This document shows, in pieces, positions 3,048 to 35,212 of a stretch of DNA of 64,000 bases. Under the pieces are notes generated by a model that saw only the letters and a program-made list of their open reading frames with translations, made no database searches and was not told where the DNA came from. This DNA comes from Acidobacteriaceae bacterium (GTDB lineage: Bacteria; Acidobacteriota; Terriglobia; Terriglobales; Acidobacteriaceae), in NCBI GenBank assembly GCA_030040425.1, contig JASHTS010000061.1, forward strand, positions 1 to 64,000, written 5' to 3'. Made by a program: the position numbers and the translations under genes. How positions within the stretch are numbered: position 1 is the stretch's first letter; each line of letters starts with the position of its first letter.

Positions 3048-4037
3048 TCAGCGGAGCAGGCGGGCCGCGTCCTTGGCGAAGTAGGTGACGATAAAATCGG
3101 CGCCGGCGCGGCGGATGGAGACCAGCGACTCCATCATGGCGCGGTCGCCGTCGAGCCAGCCTTTTTCAAAGGCGGCGTGGAGCATGGAGTACTCGCCCGA
3201 GACCTGGTAGGCGCCCAGGGCCAGCCCGAAGCGCTCGCGCGCGGCGTGGATCACGTCGAGGTACGGCATGGCCGGCTTGATGAGGATCATGTCGGCGCCT
3301 TCCTCGATATCGAGCTCGATCTCGCGCAGGGCTTCGCGCCGATTGGCGCTGTCCATCTGATACGTCTTGCGGTCGCCGAACTGGGGCGCGGAGTCGGCGG
3401 CCTCGCGGAAAGGGCCGTAAAACGCCGAGGCAAACTTGGAGGCGTAACTGAGGATGGGTGTATTCAGGCAGCTTGCCTCATCGAGGGCCTGGCGGATGGC
3501 CCCGACGCGGCCGTCCATCATGTCGCTGGGCGCCACCACGTCGGCGCCGGCCCTGGCGAGGCTGACGGCGGTGCGGGCCAGCAGCGCGACCGAGGGATCG
3601 TTGTCGACAGCGAAGCTTTCGCCGTTGCGGACCACCACGCCGCAATGGCCGTGGCTGGTGTACTCGCACAGGCAGACGTCCGCAATGAGAACCAGCTTGT
3701 TTGCGGCGGCGGAGCTTTTCAGCGCGCGCAGGCCCTGCTGCACGATGCCGTTTTCCTCCCAGGCGCCGGAACCGGTGACGTCCTTGCTCTCCGGAAGGCC
3801 AAAGAGCAGCAGGCCGCCGAGCCCGAGCGCTGCAGCTTCTTCGGCTTCGCGCACCGCTTCATCCACAGAGAGATTGAAGACGCCGGGCATGGAACTCACC
3901 GGCCGGCGCACGCCCTCACCCGGGCAGAGAAAGAGCGGATAGATCAGGTCGCCGGGCGCGAGCGCCGTCTCGCGCACCAGCGCGCGCAGCGGCTCGCTCT
4001 GCCGCAGACGGCGCATGCGGACTTGCGGGAAGGCCAT
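3048..4037 (-). CDS. hemB: delta-aminolevulinic acid dehydratase (porphobilinogen synthase)
   Basis: 329 residues, the usual HemB length. It condenses two 5-aminolevulinate molecules to porphobilinogen in cytosolic tetrapyrrole synthesis. The zinc-type metal site is visible as Cys122, Cys124 and Cys132 in [14 protein letters not shown], and the two active-site lysines as Lys201 in [15 protein letters not shown] and Lys254 in [12 protein letters not shown]. The start [12 protein letters not shown] matches the family N terminus. Heme supply fits the large cytochrome operon further along, although the two are not in one transcript. Confidence 0.97.
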
Positions 4038-4067
4038 GTGGAGATTGTAGGGCAGGTGACATGGATC

Positions 4068-4102
4068 AGGGGTCAGGGGTCAGGGAATAGGGAATAGGGA
4101 AC
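4068..4102. repeat. tandem heptamer repeat, 5 units (AGGGRNY-like)
   Basis: Five contiguous 7-bp units: AGGGGTC, AGGGGTC, AGGGAAT, AGGGAAT, AGGGAAC. It lies between the start of hemB and the end of the 4191-4691 gene. Same family as the repeats at 13494, 15670, 23314, 29246 and 35134. Confidence 0.85.
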
Positions 4103-4156: not shown

Positions 4157-4188
4157 TGAAACCTGAAACGTGACCCCTGAAACCTGCC
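4157..4188. repeat. tandem heptamer repeat, 4 units (TGAAACC-like)
   Basis: Units TGAAACC, TGAAACG, TGACCCC, TGAAACC on the plus strand; on the minus strand they read AGGTTTC, AGGGGTC, ACGTTTC, AGGTTTC. On that strand they start 5-8 bases after the stop codon of the 4191-4691 gene, the same position relative to a gene end as the other members of this family. Confidence 0.75.
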
Positions 4189-4190
4189 TT

Positions 4191-4691
4191 TCAGAGCTGT
4201 TCGTAGAGCGTGGCGTTGCGGTAGCCGAGCAGCATCACGAGCGTCCAGATGCCCAGCGCGGTGCCGAAGGGGAATTTGAGCAGGCTGAGGATGGCGGCGA
4301 CGATGGCCACGATTCTTCCCCACGAGGTGTGATCCATCAGGCCCCAGCCGGCGGCCAGGCCGAGGACGGCGCGGACGGCAAGCAACTCCCAGGCCAGATG
4401 AATGGCGAACGCGAGGAAACTCGGCGGCACCGGGCTGTTCCAGGGACCATGCGTCCAGGGCGCATGGGAGAGAAAGGCATGCGCGAAGGTCAATCCGGCA
4501 ATGCCGAGAAGCAGCGAGAGGCCCGCGTAAATGAACCAGAGAATGCTGAGAGTCTTTACCTTGCCGGAGTAGTTCGCGAGCTGAAACTGAAGGCCGGGAA
4601 CCGGGGGAATCGGCCCCGCTGCAGGCCGCCCGCAATGACCGCAAAAGGGCTGGCCGGCGGGGAGTTCCTGACCACATCCGCTGCAGAACAT
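4191..4691 (-). CDS. zinc-ribbon membrane protein of unknown function
   Basis: 166 residues from the ATG at 4691. That start is fixed by a perfect AGGAGG five bases upstream; a GTG six bases earlier overlaps this site and is unlikely. The N terminus is a zinc ribbon with two CxxC knuckles (MFCSGCGQ ... FCGHCGRP). Then come four hydrophobic spans (about residues 46-68, 85-105, 108-130, 135-155). Zinc-ribbon plus membrane proteins of this type are common in Acidobacteria, but no function is established. Divergent from the kinase gene across a 247-bp gap. Confidence 0.85.
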   Translation of the reverse strand: MFCSGCGQELPAGQPFCGHCGRPAAGPIPPVPGLQFQLANYSGKVKTLSILWFIYAGLSLLLGIAGLTFAHAFLSHAPWTHGPWNSPVPPSFLAFAIHLAWELLAVRAVLGLAAGWGLMDHTSWGRIVAIVAAILSLLKFPFGTALGIWTLVMLLGYRNATLYEQL

Positions 4692-13493: not shown

Positions 13494-13543
13494 AGGGAGC
13501 AAGGGAGCAAGGGAACAAGGGAGCAAGGCAGCAAGGGAACAAG
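13494..13543. repeat. tandem octamer repeat, 6 units (AGGGARCA)
   Basis: Units AGGGAGCA, AGGGAGCA, AGGGAACA, AGGGAGCA, AGGCAGCA, AGGGAACA, starting five bases after the actB stop and ending eight bases before the actC start. It fills the whole actB-actC gap in an operon whose other genes mostly overlap. Confidence 0.9.
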
Positions 13544-15086: not shown

Positions 15087-15629
15087 ATGCCCGCACGCGA
15101 AGGAATCTACGGACTTCTGGCCGAGTTCGAAACGCCTGGCGATCTGGTGCGCGCCGCCCGGCAGTCCTATCAGGACGGATGGCGGCGCCTGGACTGCTAC
15201 ACCCCGTTTCCTCTGGAAGAGGCGGCCGAAGCCATCGGCTTCCATCGGGACAAGGTCCCGCTGCTCTGTCTGCTGGGCGGCCTGCTGGGTGGGGCAGCCA
15301 TGTTCGGGCTGGAGACCTGGATTTCGGTGATTGCGTTTCCCATCAACGTGGCCGGCCGTCCCACCTATTCCTGGCCGGCGTTCATCGTGCCCGCTTACGA
15401 GTGGACGATTCTGTGGGCCGGGCTTTCGGCCGCGTTCGGCATGCTCGCCCTGTGCGGTCTGCCCTCTCTCTATCACCCGCTCTTTAACGCGCCCAATTTC
15501 CGCGACGGAGCGACTACGGACAAGTTCTTCCTGTGCCTGGAGGCGCTCGATCCCAAATTCGATGTGGCTGAAGCGCGGGCGTATCTCGAGACGATGGGGC
15601 CTGTATCCGTGGTGGAGGTGGAGTACTGA
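15087..15629 (+). CDS. actD: Alternative Complex III subunit ActD (DUF3341)
   Basis: 180 residues. The start MPAREGIYGLLAEFETPGDL and the block RLDCYTPFPLEEAAEAIGF match the DUF3341 family, which is the ActD subunit. Two membrane spans at about 58-82 and 104-126 form the hairpin that packs against ActF/ActC; the N-terminal domain is cytoplasmic in known ACIII structures. The longer frame from 15063 is less likely because MPARE is the conserved start and lies directly after the small ORF. Confidence 0.93.
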   Translation: MPAREGIYGLLAEFETPGDLVRAARQSYQDGWRRLDCYTPFPLEEAAEAIGFHRDKVPLLCLLGGLLGGAAMFGLETWISVIAFPINVAGRPTYSWPAFIVPAYEWTILWAGLSAAFGMLALCGLPSLYHPLFNAPNFRDGATTDKFFLCLEALDPKFDVAEARAYLETMGPVSVVEVEY

Positions 15630-15669
15630 TGGCCAGGGATCGGAGAACAGGGTTCTGGGATCGGCGTCC

Positions 15670-15704
15670 AGTGATCAGTGATCCGTGGTCAGCGGGCAGT
15701 GGTC
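15670..15704. repeat. tandem heptamer repeat, 5 units (AGTGRTC)
   Basis: Units AGTGATC, AGTGATC, CGTGGTC, AGCGGGC, AGTGGTC. They follow more degenerate AGGGATC/AGGGTTC copies that begin a few bases after the actD stop, so the whole actD-actE gap appears built from this repeat type. Confidence 0.75.
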
Positions 15705-22934: not shown

Positions 22935-23315
22935 ATGAGCGAACCGAACGCACACAACGAGCAGGGCGCAGAGCACGAGCCGCACATTGTCAGCCCCGGC
23001 ACCTACGCCATCATTCTCCTGGTCCTGCTCGTGGCCACCGCGACCACTTGCGGTATGTCGTATATCGACCTGGGCGAATGGCATATCGCGATCAATCTCT
23101 TTGGCTGGCACGTCGGCACCACTCTCTTCTGGAATCCCGTGGTTGCTCTCGCCATCGCCTGCACCAAGATGACCCTGGTGGTGCTGTTTTTCATGCACAT
23201 CAAGTACAGCTCCAAGTTGACCAAGCTCACCGTAATCAGCGGCTTCTTCATCTTTCTTGGACTGATCAGCATGACGCTGGCCGACTACGTGAGCCGCGCC
23301 TGGGGACGGTGGTAG
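22935..23315 (+). CDS. ctaF: cytochrome c oxidase subunit IV (prokaryotic type)
   Basis: 126 residues with three hydrophobic spans (about 23-43, 59-84 and 91-113). The segment KMTLVVLFFMHIKYSSKLTKL matches prokaryotic COX4/CtaF. Last gene of the operon, thirteen bases after ctaE, and followed by a strong terminator. Confidence 0.92.
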   Translation: MSEPNAHNEQGAEHEPHIVSPGTYAIILLVLLVATATTCGMSYIDLGEWHIAINLFGWHVGTTLFWNPVVALAIACTKMTLVVLFFMHIKYSSKLTKLTVISGFFIFLGLISMTLADYVSRAWGRW

Positions 23316-23330
23316 GGAGGCAGGGGTCAG
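23314..23330. repeat. short tandem repeat beginning in the ctaF stop codon
   Basis: AGGGAGGC then AGGGGTC then AG, the first A being the second base of the TAG stop. Short member of the same family as the repeats at 29246 and 35134, which also begin inside a TAG stop. Confidence 0.55.
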
Positions 23331-23339
23331 TGAACAGCC

Positions 23340-23364
23340 AAGGCCGCCGGCGGGCGGCCTTTTT
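23340..23364 (+). terminator. intrinsic terminator of the ACIII/oxidase operon
   Basis: AGGCCGCC (23341-23348), loop GGCG, GGCGGCCT (23353-23360), then TTTT. Perfect 8-bp GC stem followed at once by a T run, 25 bases after the last oxidase gene. Confidence 0.92.
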
Positions 23365-28941: not shown

Positions 28942-29247
28942 ATGGCGGAAAAAGTCACAGTCGAAGACGTGGAGCGCGTGGCCGAGCTGGCGCGGTTGAA
29001 GCTGGCGCCGGACGAAGTGCCGCGCATGAGCAATGACCTGAATGCCATCCTCGCTTACATAAGCGAACTCAACGAACTCGATACAGCTCGCGTGGCGCCG
29101 CTCGAGCAGGTGAGCGAACTGGCCGATTTTTCGAGCGAGCTGCGGCCGGATGTGCTGGTCCCTTCGCTTGAGCGTGCCGAGGTGATGCGCGAGGCGCCTG
29201 AGTCCGACGGGAGTTTCTTCAAGGTTCCCAAGGTGATTGAGAGGTAG
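28942..29247 (+). CDS. gatC: Asp/Glu-tRNA amidotransferase subunit C
   Basis: 101 residues, standard GatC length. The start MAEKVTVEDVERVAELARL and the end REAPESDGSFFKVPKVI are diagnostic. GatC stabilises the GatAB amidotransferase that converts Asp-tRNA(Asn) and Glu-tRNA(Gln) to their amidated forms. gatA follows after a 122-bp repeat element; gatB is not in this window. Confidence 0.96.
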   Translation: MAEKVTVEDVERVAELARLKLAPDEVPRMSNDLNAILAYISELNELDTARVAPLEQVSELADFSSELRPDVLVPSLERAEVMREAPESDGSFFKVPKVIER

Positions 29248-29269
29248 GGAACCAGGGAACTAGGGATCT
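29246..29269. repeat. tandem octamer repeat beginning in the gatC stop codon
   Basis: Units AGGGAACC, AGGGAACT, AGGGATCT; the first A is the second base of the gatC TAG stop. Similar degenerate units (AGGGAGCG, AGGGAACA) resume at 29403-29420 on the other side of the MITE-like element, so the element may have inserted into a longer tract. Confidence 0.8.
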
Positions 29270-29275
29270 AGAACG

Positions 29276-29397
29276 GGTTGCATAAATGGCATTGTAAAAG
29301 GGCACGGCTTTAGCCGGGCCGCGAGAAACCGCACAAACATTGGGGCTTTACCCCCTGTGGGATGTTTCCATCTCGTCTTCGGACCATTTATGCAACC
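29276..29397. mobile_element. MITE-like element between gatC and gatA
   Basis: A 122-bp unit bounded by perfect 14-bp inverted repeats, GGTTGCATAAATGG (29276-29289) and CCATTTATGCAACC (29384-29397). Inside are two smaller palindromes, CGGCTTTAGCCG near 29304 and GGGGCTTTACCCC near 29342. It has no coding capacity. No clean target duplication can be seen, but the flanks are both AGGGA-type repeats (TCTAGAAC before, AACTCTAG after), which may hide one. The GC-rich inner palindromes look like a repeat common in Acidobacteria genomes. Confidence 0.75.
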
Positions 29398-33515: not shown

Positions 33516-35135
33516 ATGAAAATGAATCTCAAGAACAGGATTGCTCTGATCATTGCCGTCCTGCTGGTTTGCCTGTACGGCATCTTCGGCGTGCCGTCGG
33601 GGATCACCGGAAAGGACCTTGCAGCCGCGCTGACCAAGCGGATTCACCTGGGGCTGGATTTGCAGGGAGGCGCGCACCTGATTCTGCAGGCGCAGGTTTC
33701 CGATGCTGTGAACGCGGAGACCGACAACTCCGTCCAGGACATCGAGCAGGACTTGAACAAGAGCAACCTGACTTTTTCCCAGGTGTACAAGCCCGATCCC
33801 AACAAGCCGGAGGTGATCCGGGTCGAGGGCACTTCGCCGGCCCAGTCGAGCGAGGTGAGCACGCTTCTCGAGGGCACAAAGTATGCCGAGGAGTACGACG
33901 TCTCCCAGGGCGTCAACAACACCTGGACGCTGACCATGAAGCCGCTCTTCGAATCGGACCTGGAAAAGCGCACCGTGCAGCAGGCCATTGAGACCATCCG
34001 CGACCGGGTGGATTCGCTGGGCGTGAGCGAGCCGGTGATCCAGGAGTACGGCCTGGGCGCCAACCAGATCCTAGTAGAGCTGCCCGGGGTGAGCGACCTG
34101 GATCAGGTGAAGACCATCCTCAACTCTACGGCTCGGCTTGAGATCCACGCCGTAGAGGGTGGCCCGTTCAACGACCGCCAGGCTGCGCTCGAGAGCGTGG
34201 GGGGCGATCTTCCGCCCAACGACGAGATCCTGCCGGCGACCGGGGAACTTGCCGGTGCAGCGGGCAACGGCAGCTTCTACATTCTGCAGCGTCTGGCCAT
34301 TGTGGAGGGCAGCGACTTCCGTTCCGCCGTCCCCACCACCAATTCCAACACCGGACAGAGGGAAGTCACTTTCACCCTGACCGACGAGGCCGGAGACAAG
34401 TTCTGGAACTACACCAGCGCCAACGTGGGGAAAAGCATGGCGGTGGTGATGGGCGGCACGGTCCGCGAAGTGGCCGTGATCCAGAGCGGCATCCACGATA
34501 CGGGCGAGATTACGGGCAGCTTCTCACCCGATGAAGTGATGATGCTTTCCAAGCTCCTGCGCACCGGCGCGCTGCCTGCTTCGCTGAACTACATCGAGGA
34601 GAGCACCGTGGGCGCGACATTGGGAGCCGACTCGATTCGCGAAGGCGTAACGGCCGCGGTTGCGGGCGTGCTGGTGGTGTGGATCTTCATGCTGATTTAT
34701 TACAAGGGTTCGGGAATCAACGCCGATCTGGCGCTGTTTCTGAACCTGGTGATCCTGCTCGGCTTCATGGGTTTCTCCCAGGCCGCGCTCACGCTCCCCG
34801 GGATTGCCGGCGTGATTCTCACCATCGGCATGGGCGTCGACTCCAACGTGCTGATCTTCGAGCGCATCCGCGAGGAGATTCGCGCCGGCAAAGCGGCGTC
34901 GGCCGCCGTCGATCAGGGTTTCGCTCATGCCTGGGTGACCATTCTCGATACGCACGTAACCACGATCGTCTCGGCGGCCATTCTTTTCATTTTCGGCACC
35001 GGTCCGGTGAGGGGCTTTGCAACCACGCTGACCTTCGGTCTTTTGGCCAACCTCTTCACCGCCGTCTTTGTCTCGCGCGTGATCTTTGAGGCGCATTTGA
35101 ACAAACTCAAGCCGGGGGAGATGGTCTCTATCTAG
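33516..35135 (+). CDS. secD: protein translocase subunit SecD
   Basis: 539 residues from ATG 33516; ATG 33522 is an equal alternative. N-terminal span, then the GLDLQGGAHLIL motif, a periplasmic P1 region of about 300 residues, and five C-terminal spans with GVDSNVLIFERIREEIRAGK. It uses the proton gradient to help pull exported proteins through SecYEG. The TAG stop is the first part of a tandem repeat that separates it from secF. Confidence 0.96.
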   Translation: MKMNLKNRIALIIAVLLVCLYGIFGVPSGITGKDLAAALTKRIHLGLDLQGGAHLILQAQVSDAVNAETDNSVQDIEQDLNKSNLTFSQVYKPDPNKPEVIRVEGTSPAQSSEVSTLLEGTKYAEEYDVSQGVNNTWTLTMKPLFESDLEKRTVQQAIETIRDRVDSLGVSEPVIQEYGLGANQILVELPGVSDLDQVKTILNSTARLEIHAVEGGPFNDRQAALESVGGDLPPNDEILPATGELAGAAGNGSFYILQRLAIVEGSDFRSAVPTTNSNTGQREVTFTLTDEAGDKFWNYTSANVGKSMAVVMGGTVREVAVIQSGIHDTGEITGSFSPDEVMMLSKLLRTGALPASLNYIEESTVGATLGADSIREGVTAAVAGVLVVWIFMLIYYKGSGINADLALFLNLVILLGFMGFSQAALTLPGIAGVILTIGMGVDSNVLIFERIREEIRAGKAASAAVDQGFAHAWVTILDTHVTTIVSAAILFIFGTGPVRGFATTLTFGLLANLFTAVFVSRVIFEAHLNKLKPGEMVSI

Positions 35136-35193
35136 GGACTAGGGACTAGGGAAGCAGAAGCTGAGAGCTGATGGCCGAGAGCTGAGAGCTCAC
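35134..35193. repeat. two consecutive tandem heptamer arrays between secD and secF
   Basis: First array AGGGACT, AGGGACT, AGGGAAG (35134-35154), starting at the second base of the secD stop. Second array AGCTGAG, AGCTGAT, GGCCGAG, AGCTGAG, AGCTCAC (35159-35193). Both have period seven but different cores, back to back. Confidence 0.88.
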
Positions 35194-35212
35194 GAGAAGG
35201 GAAATAGAACCA

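Follow-up and report, generated by a model that had tools for sequence, protein, structure and literature searches.

Period-7 and period-8 tandem arrays at gene borders of Acidobacteriota share a placement rule that looks independent of the repeat unit

Heptamer arrays of the STRR type have been known for decades, and to our knowledge none has been assigned a function. The cyanobacterial STRRs are 7-bp repeats with hairpin potential that also occupy operon gaps, for example between hupS and hupL, and have no known function (PMC2670836). The GGGNATC heptamers of Xanthomonas and Nostoc follow the same placement rule as the tracts described below, again with function unassigned (Rehm et al. 2015; PMC4692102). 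Like these tracts, they have a period of 7, are mostly intergenic and rare between divergent genes, lie on the sense strand no more than 50 bp from stops or on the antisense strand ahead of starts, vary in copy number at conserved positions, and form convergent inverted pairs (70–75 cases per Xanthomonas genome; PMC4692102). The TAACTGA direct repeats are found in Beggiatoaceae, Cyanobacteria and Bacteroidetes (MacGregor 2015; PMC4679880), and resemble our arrays in being intergenic heptamers whose orientation to genes is fixed and which sometimes overlap stops; there, however, a single unit is used, and in Beggiatoaceae it mostly lies, in the forward sense, directly before start codons. Our arrays have other units, and their main anchor is the stop codon. 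A search of the openly licensed literature gave no description of such arrays for Acidobacteria.

The window, the whole stretch of 64,000 nucleotides analysed here, corresponds to contig C127 of a draft genome (4.56 Mb in 312 contigs, about 75% complete). A sequence-only reading had picked out seven tracts of contiguous 7- or 8-bp units in it; all are present where that reading placed them, a tandem-repeat finder recovers most of them, and six are individually significant. The tracts at 4068–4102, 4157–4188, 13494–13541, 15670–15704 and 29246–29269 and both blocks of 35134–35193 reach the floor of a test against shuffles of their own bases (p=0.0005), and only 23314–23330, taken alone, is indistinguishable from such shuffles (p=0.46). 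The tracts sit outside reading frames, at housekeeping genes, and the names proposed for their neighbours (ActB/ActC/ActD, caa3 subunit IV, GatC/GatA and SecD/SecF) are correct; the assertion that most other neighbours overlap is overstated, as only about 3 of 25 codirectional junctions do so. Rfam returns no match within the window.

The period-8 tract AGGGAGCA at 13494–13543 (plus strand) begins 4 nt past the actB stop and ends 7 nt ahead of actC, and it also holds a 24-bp higher-order repeat, a duplication of three units. At 15670–15704 the five units reported earlier are present, but the extent was underestimated: ten in-register heptamers fill 15634–15704 on the plus strand, starting 4 nt past the actD stop at 15629 and reading CAGGGAT, CGGAGAA, CAGGGTT, CTGGGAT, CGGCGTC, CAGTGAT, CAGTGAT, CCGTGGT, CAGCGGG and CAGTGGT. 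The first half is degenerate, and self-matching reaches 40 of 64 at period 7, with none of the other periods between 4 and 12 exceeding 16. The two tracts near 4 kb were likewise seen, but not that they are the arms of an inverted pair between minus-strand genes. The first arm, a plus-strand period-7 tract of AGGGGTC/AGGGAAT units at 4060–4102, is antisense to the flanking genes and 22 nt from the start of the gene at 3048–4037 (minus strand), while the second, of minus-strand CAGGTTT/CAGGGGT heptamers at 4157–4188, begins 4 nt past the stop of the gene at 4191–4691 (minus strand) and is sense to it. As had been stated, the TAG stops at 23313, 29245 and 35133 supply the first AG of three plus-strand tracts, those of ctaF, gatC and secD. 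The first is a short, decayed period-7 tract at 23314–23333, directly before an intrinsic terminator stem-loop on the same strand (23340–23361), and a longer tract lies at the matching ctaF position in the related genome G360. The second is a period-8 tract at 29246–29271; the third is a period-7 tract of CTAGGGA units over the secD stop (35132–35153), with a second period-7 block of AGCTGAG units (35159–35193, plus strand) in the secD–secF gap.

Our statistics rest on sampled stretches of this genome and its relatives, in which coding and intergenic DNA were separated by a home-made gene finder. The intergenic DNA sampled from the genus (185 kb) holds 44 period-7 arrays where dinucleotide-model shuffles of each region give 0.4, 15 period-8 arrays where they give 0.65, and nine period-14 arrays against 0.5, with no remaining period above eight; in these stretches the repeats thus pass the comparison with shuffled sequence that had been suggested for them. 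Noncoding DNA in 1.2 Mb of the own genome and its congeners holds 53 arrays of period 7, 19 of period 8 and ten of period 14 (others nine or fewer), and coding DNA in the same sample holds three each of periods 7 and 8, such that 72 of the 78 period-7/8 arrays are noncoding. A set of stretches of the own genome picked without regard to matches (271 kb) contains five period-7/8 arrays that reach score 12. Some other stretches were picked knowing that they held matches, so that their densities do not represent the genome as a whole; the effect on positions and orientations is smaller.

Placement relative to gene ends is non-random in the sampled stretches. Among tracts that are sense to the upstream gene, 24 of 35 in the genus and 28 of 56 in the phylum (here Acidobacteriota) begin no more than 12 nt from its stop, compared with 5.9 and 8.2 when tracts are slid at random inside their own regions; the proposed enrichment at gene 3′ ends and the filling of operon gaps are both borne out. 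For 129 of 178 tracts the strand that carries the AG phase points away from the nearest gene (129 versus 49, p=1.7e-9), and the split is 121 versus 57 when the strand is set by G–C skew alone, although these counts are not fully independent because several tracts may share one region. Tract density falls from 0.95 per kb in codirectional regions to 0.60 in convergent and 0.31 in divergent ones, and the drop toward divergent regions is expected if promoters exclude tracts. The sequence-only reading missed the antisense arms upstream of starts. Nor is there a special link to TAG stops: those near tracts (15 TGA, 9 TAG and 2 TAA) match overall usage (417, 256 and 178; p=0.67), and with TAG not enriched, a TAG stop as the obligatory seed is ruled out.

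Comparison of orthologous junctions shows that the position of a tract outlives its sequence, since tracts are kept while copy number, unit and period change. The actB–actC gap is short and has no tract in most of 30 congeners; the window's genome has a 48-bp octamer tract there, G341 (95% ActC identity) a short degenerate one, and G360 (94% ActC identity) a long heptamer tract. Both blocks between secD and secF, AGGGA and AGCTGAG, are common to the window's genome, G360 and G346 with differing copy numbers, three further genomes (G351, G342 and G023) have an inverted AGCTNNT pair in that gap, and the others have a plain hairpin or nothing. We note that many relatives without the tract have a compact hairpin, for example of the GCTGGAGCC...GGCTCCAGC type, in its place ahead of secF, as at the junctions in L284, L290, L294, L301 and L302. 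Period-7 arrays with drifting units occur at actD–actE from the window's genome to G349. Tracts recur at the same junctions 26 times against a null of 7.3, a value reached in none of 5000 permutations, and eight times against 2.0 (p=0.001) when the two closest relatives are left out; the degenerate actD–actE tract of the window's genome, being below threshold, did not enter this test. Shared descent may explain the excess. The earlier proposals that this is one phenomenon, with the period kept while the core varies between tracts, and that it is not one copied element, agree with these findings.

The arrays extend across the phylum, which the sequence-only reading also missed. Of 297 phylum genomes, 161 contain a pattern of YAG every 7 bp, repeated five times, and the units are specific to lineages, among them TAGACGT, TAGGGTC, CAGGAGT, CAGGGTT, CAGTAGT and TAGCGAA; the own genome has 205 matches, compared with 45 for the reversed control. 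That control outnumbers the YAG pattern in many phylum genomes, which implies that other period-7 units exist, and GAATTGA, GGATGCA and similar units are indeed seen. In four genomes (G051, G297, G226 and G042) the reversed control, GAY every 7 bp, lies far above the forward pattern, and these carry heptamer arrays built on another constant dinucleotide. Even inside the genus the AGGGA octamer pattern is patchy. Units within one tract grade into each other, as in the actD–actE tract of G360 (CAGGTTT, CAGGGGT, CAGCGAT, CAGTGAT, CAGTGGT). In a scan of the 297 phylum genomes, the model of SbcD, a hairpin nuclease, matched nothing in the window's genome or in most of the family members listed; however, array-rich genomes with a full SbcD exist (G103 with 1246 pattern matches, G280 with 508 and G210 with 557), so that there is no clean link between the two, and absence of SbcD as a permissive cause is rejected.

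The arrays are a real feature, common in the phylum and of a known class. As in the STRRs, heterogeneous 7-bp tandem units (with period 8 a minority) are dispersed, mainly between genes and also inside operons, and have hairpin potential; the phylum and the units are different, and the likeness to STRR units is one of architecture only, the units being too short and too fast-changing for descent to be compared. The view that the STRR parallel is unrelated is nevertheless not supported, as the architecture matches both the cyanobacterial and the Xanthomonas heptamers and AGGGAAT units resemble the GGGNATC class. Outward orientation and nearness to sense stops agree with the GGGNATC repeats, as does convergent pairing: among 62 adjacent tract pairs in the same region, 31 are convergent, six divergent and 25 tandem, most of them from the phylum sample and few from the genus. 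Unlike the GGGNATC repeats, which have one G-rich unit type per lineage, our arrays have many units per genome, include period 8, change units between orthologous junctions and mostly lack the four G-runs of a quadruplex; AGGGAAT and AGGGGTC come close to GGGNATC or GGGGAYT, but most units do not. What looks new is that the placement rule is independent of the unit, and that positions stay fixed while unit and period are replaced. One rule of placement and orientation serves many unrelated units across one phylum, and it therefore cannot rest on one motif such as a quadruplex or a stop codon; the question narrows to what sets the period of 7 bp and what sets the orientation.

We consider it probable that these are arrays of the STRR or long-SSR class, grown by slippage and tolerated just outside translated DNA. 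Strand slippage would duplicate a 7-bp, less often an 8-bp, stretch of weakly constrained DNA directly past a stop codon or directly ahead of a ribosome-binding site, and further slippage by whole units would add or remove copies with the register preserved. Point mutations would make units drift, such that every tract comes to have its own; some intergenic regions would gain an inverted copy, the matched arms being convergent pairs able to fold into long hairpins, with templating of one arm by the other as the likely route; and tracts would survive where protein, initiation region and terminator all stay unbroken. The near absence of 7/8-bp arrays from coding DNA and their abundance in intergenic DNA support this reading, as do the grading of neighbouring units into each other, the higher-order duplication at 13494, the turnover at actB–actC, the recurrence of tracts at the same junctions and the fall in density from codirectional to divergent regions. 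Arm matching supports it too: an inverted partner scoring at least 15 is present in 34 of 168 cases and in none of the shuffled or mirror controls, and the arms of a pair match each other while other regions of the same genome use other units. At L231:13800–13940, a near-perfect inverted pair of CAGATCG/CAGATGG heptamers, the arms match down to the variant unit, which suggests arm-to-arm templating. In Acidobacterium capsulatum more than 26% of spontaneous mutations are indels, an unusually high share (PMC8717266), which is compatible with slippage but supports it weakly because the SSRs of that species are mostly coding (PMC8717266). We infer that slippage is the generator, that arms template each other and that no function is required of most tracts; a generator of 7-bp repeats fits all tracts, with structure as a by-product or secondary use, and no single function does. 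Plain slippage leaves unexplained the preference for 7 bp over 5, 6, 9 or 10, the AG-rich strand outward and the excess of convergent over divergent pairs, and recurrence at the same junctions is equally expected from a function.

It is possible, though we think it rather unlikely, that RNA structure is what is selected, with the hairpins of paired arrays at mRNA 3′ ends and in operon gaps stopping RNA polymerase or blocking exonucleases, and with single tracts as half-built or decayed forms. Convergent pairs make up 31 of the 62 noted above. Minus-strand RNA across the window's inverted pair (4192–4050) folds at −55.6 kcal/mol (z −5.7), the L231 pair at −87.4 kcal/mol (z −11.8) and L281 at z −3.7, and regions with a tract fold slightly better than those without in the genus (median z −0.60 versus −0.15, p=0.037) and the phylum (−1.63 versus −0.74, p=0.007). 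STRR hairpins between cyanobacterial genes such as hupS–hupL offer a precedent (PMC2670836). However, the difference in folding is driven by the minority of tract regions with z below −3 (9% in the genus, 32% in the phylum), and hairpins as a general explanation are set aside as fitting only that 9% of genus regions. Codirectional regions of the genus have mostly single tracts (18 in one orientation and 17 in the other, against four convergent), the operon tracts at 13494 and 35130–35212 are no more strongly folded than shuffled sequence (z 0.66 and 0.35), and actB–actC lacks a tract in most congeners. Paired arrays share with REP/BIME palindromes and intrinsic terminators the capacity to form long hairpins 3′ of stops, but they are tandem heptamers and not one conserved palindrome. 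The GC stem-loop and U-run of an intrinsic terminator are not found, in that single operon tracts do not fold and no U-run was seen 3′ of the arms inspected; the ctaF tract is flanked by the stop on one side and by a separate, ordinary terminator on the other.

The geometry might instead come from a dedicated, unit-independent process making 7-bp repeats at Acidobacteriota gene borders, such as a polymerase that slips in steps of 7 nt where DNA is stalled or looped, combined with arm templating; we regard this as improbable. If it were true, the 7-bp register, the outward AG strand and the convergent pairs, and not the sequence, would be what is selected or generated, and the cyanobacterial and Xanthomonas repeats would be products of the same process.

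Strong periodicity, a near-constant AG and fixed orientation to genes could also indicate an array of binding sites, read in DNA or RNA at 7-nt intervals by a translation regulator or nucleoid protein, and a translational role has been proposed for the Beggiatoaceae TAACTGA arrays (PMC4679880). We doubt this strongly, since units vary from tract to tract within a genome and from species to species, with periods 8 and 7 mixed, which leaves little for a sequence-specific reader. G-quadruplex elements, as proposed for the Xanthomonas and Nostoc repeats, are very unlikely: four or more GGG runs separated by short loops do occur in the tracts at 13494–13541 and 4068–4102, and Rehm et al. showed that GGGNATC-type oligonucleotides fold (PMC4692102), but no more than 10 of 67 genus tracts could form a quadruplex, too few for a general explanation, and CAGTGAT, AGCTGAG, CAGTTGT and GAATTGA units obey the same placement rule. 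Still less credible is a mobile element with heptamer ends that inserts beside stop codons; convergent arms around a spacer resemble terminal inverted repeats and orthologous junctions without a tract exist, but the units are not constant, either among the regions of a single genome or among orthologous copies, there are many single tracts and no shared core is seen. Safety stops, in which a period that is not a multiple of three places stop codons in all frames 3′ of a gene, are the least credible, as this effect, pointed out by MacGregor for TAACTGA (PMC4679880) and real in CTAGGGA or CAGTGAT arrays, is found on the AG strand of only 16 of 67 genus tracts (29 on the other strand), so that it fails as a general explanation, while AGGGAGCA has no such stops and TAG stops are not enriched.

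The gatC–gatA tract also contains a MITE-like element of 122 bp (29276–29397) with the inverted ends GGTTGCATAAATGGC, on the far side of which the repeat units resume. Sites resembling its ends number 63 in the draft genome compared with seven in the control, many of them as inverted pairs; at least three adjoin AGGGA tracts (on C127, C110 and C114), and G341 has one such element inside a tract.
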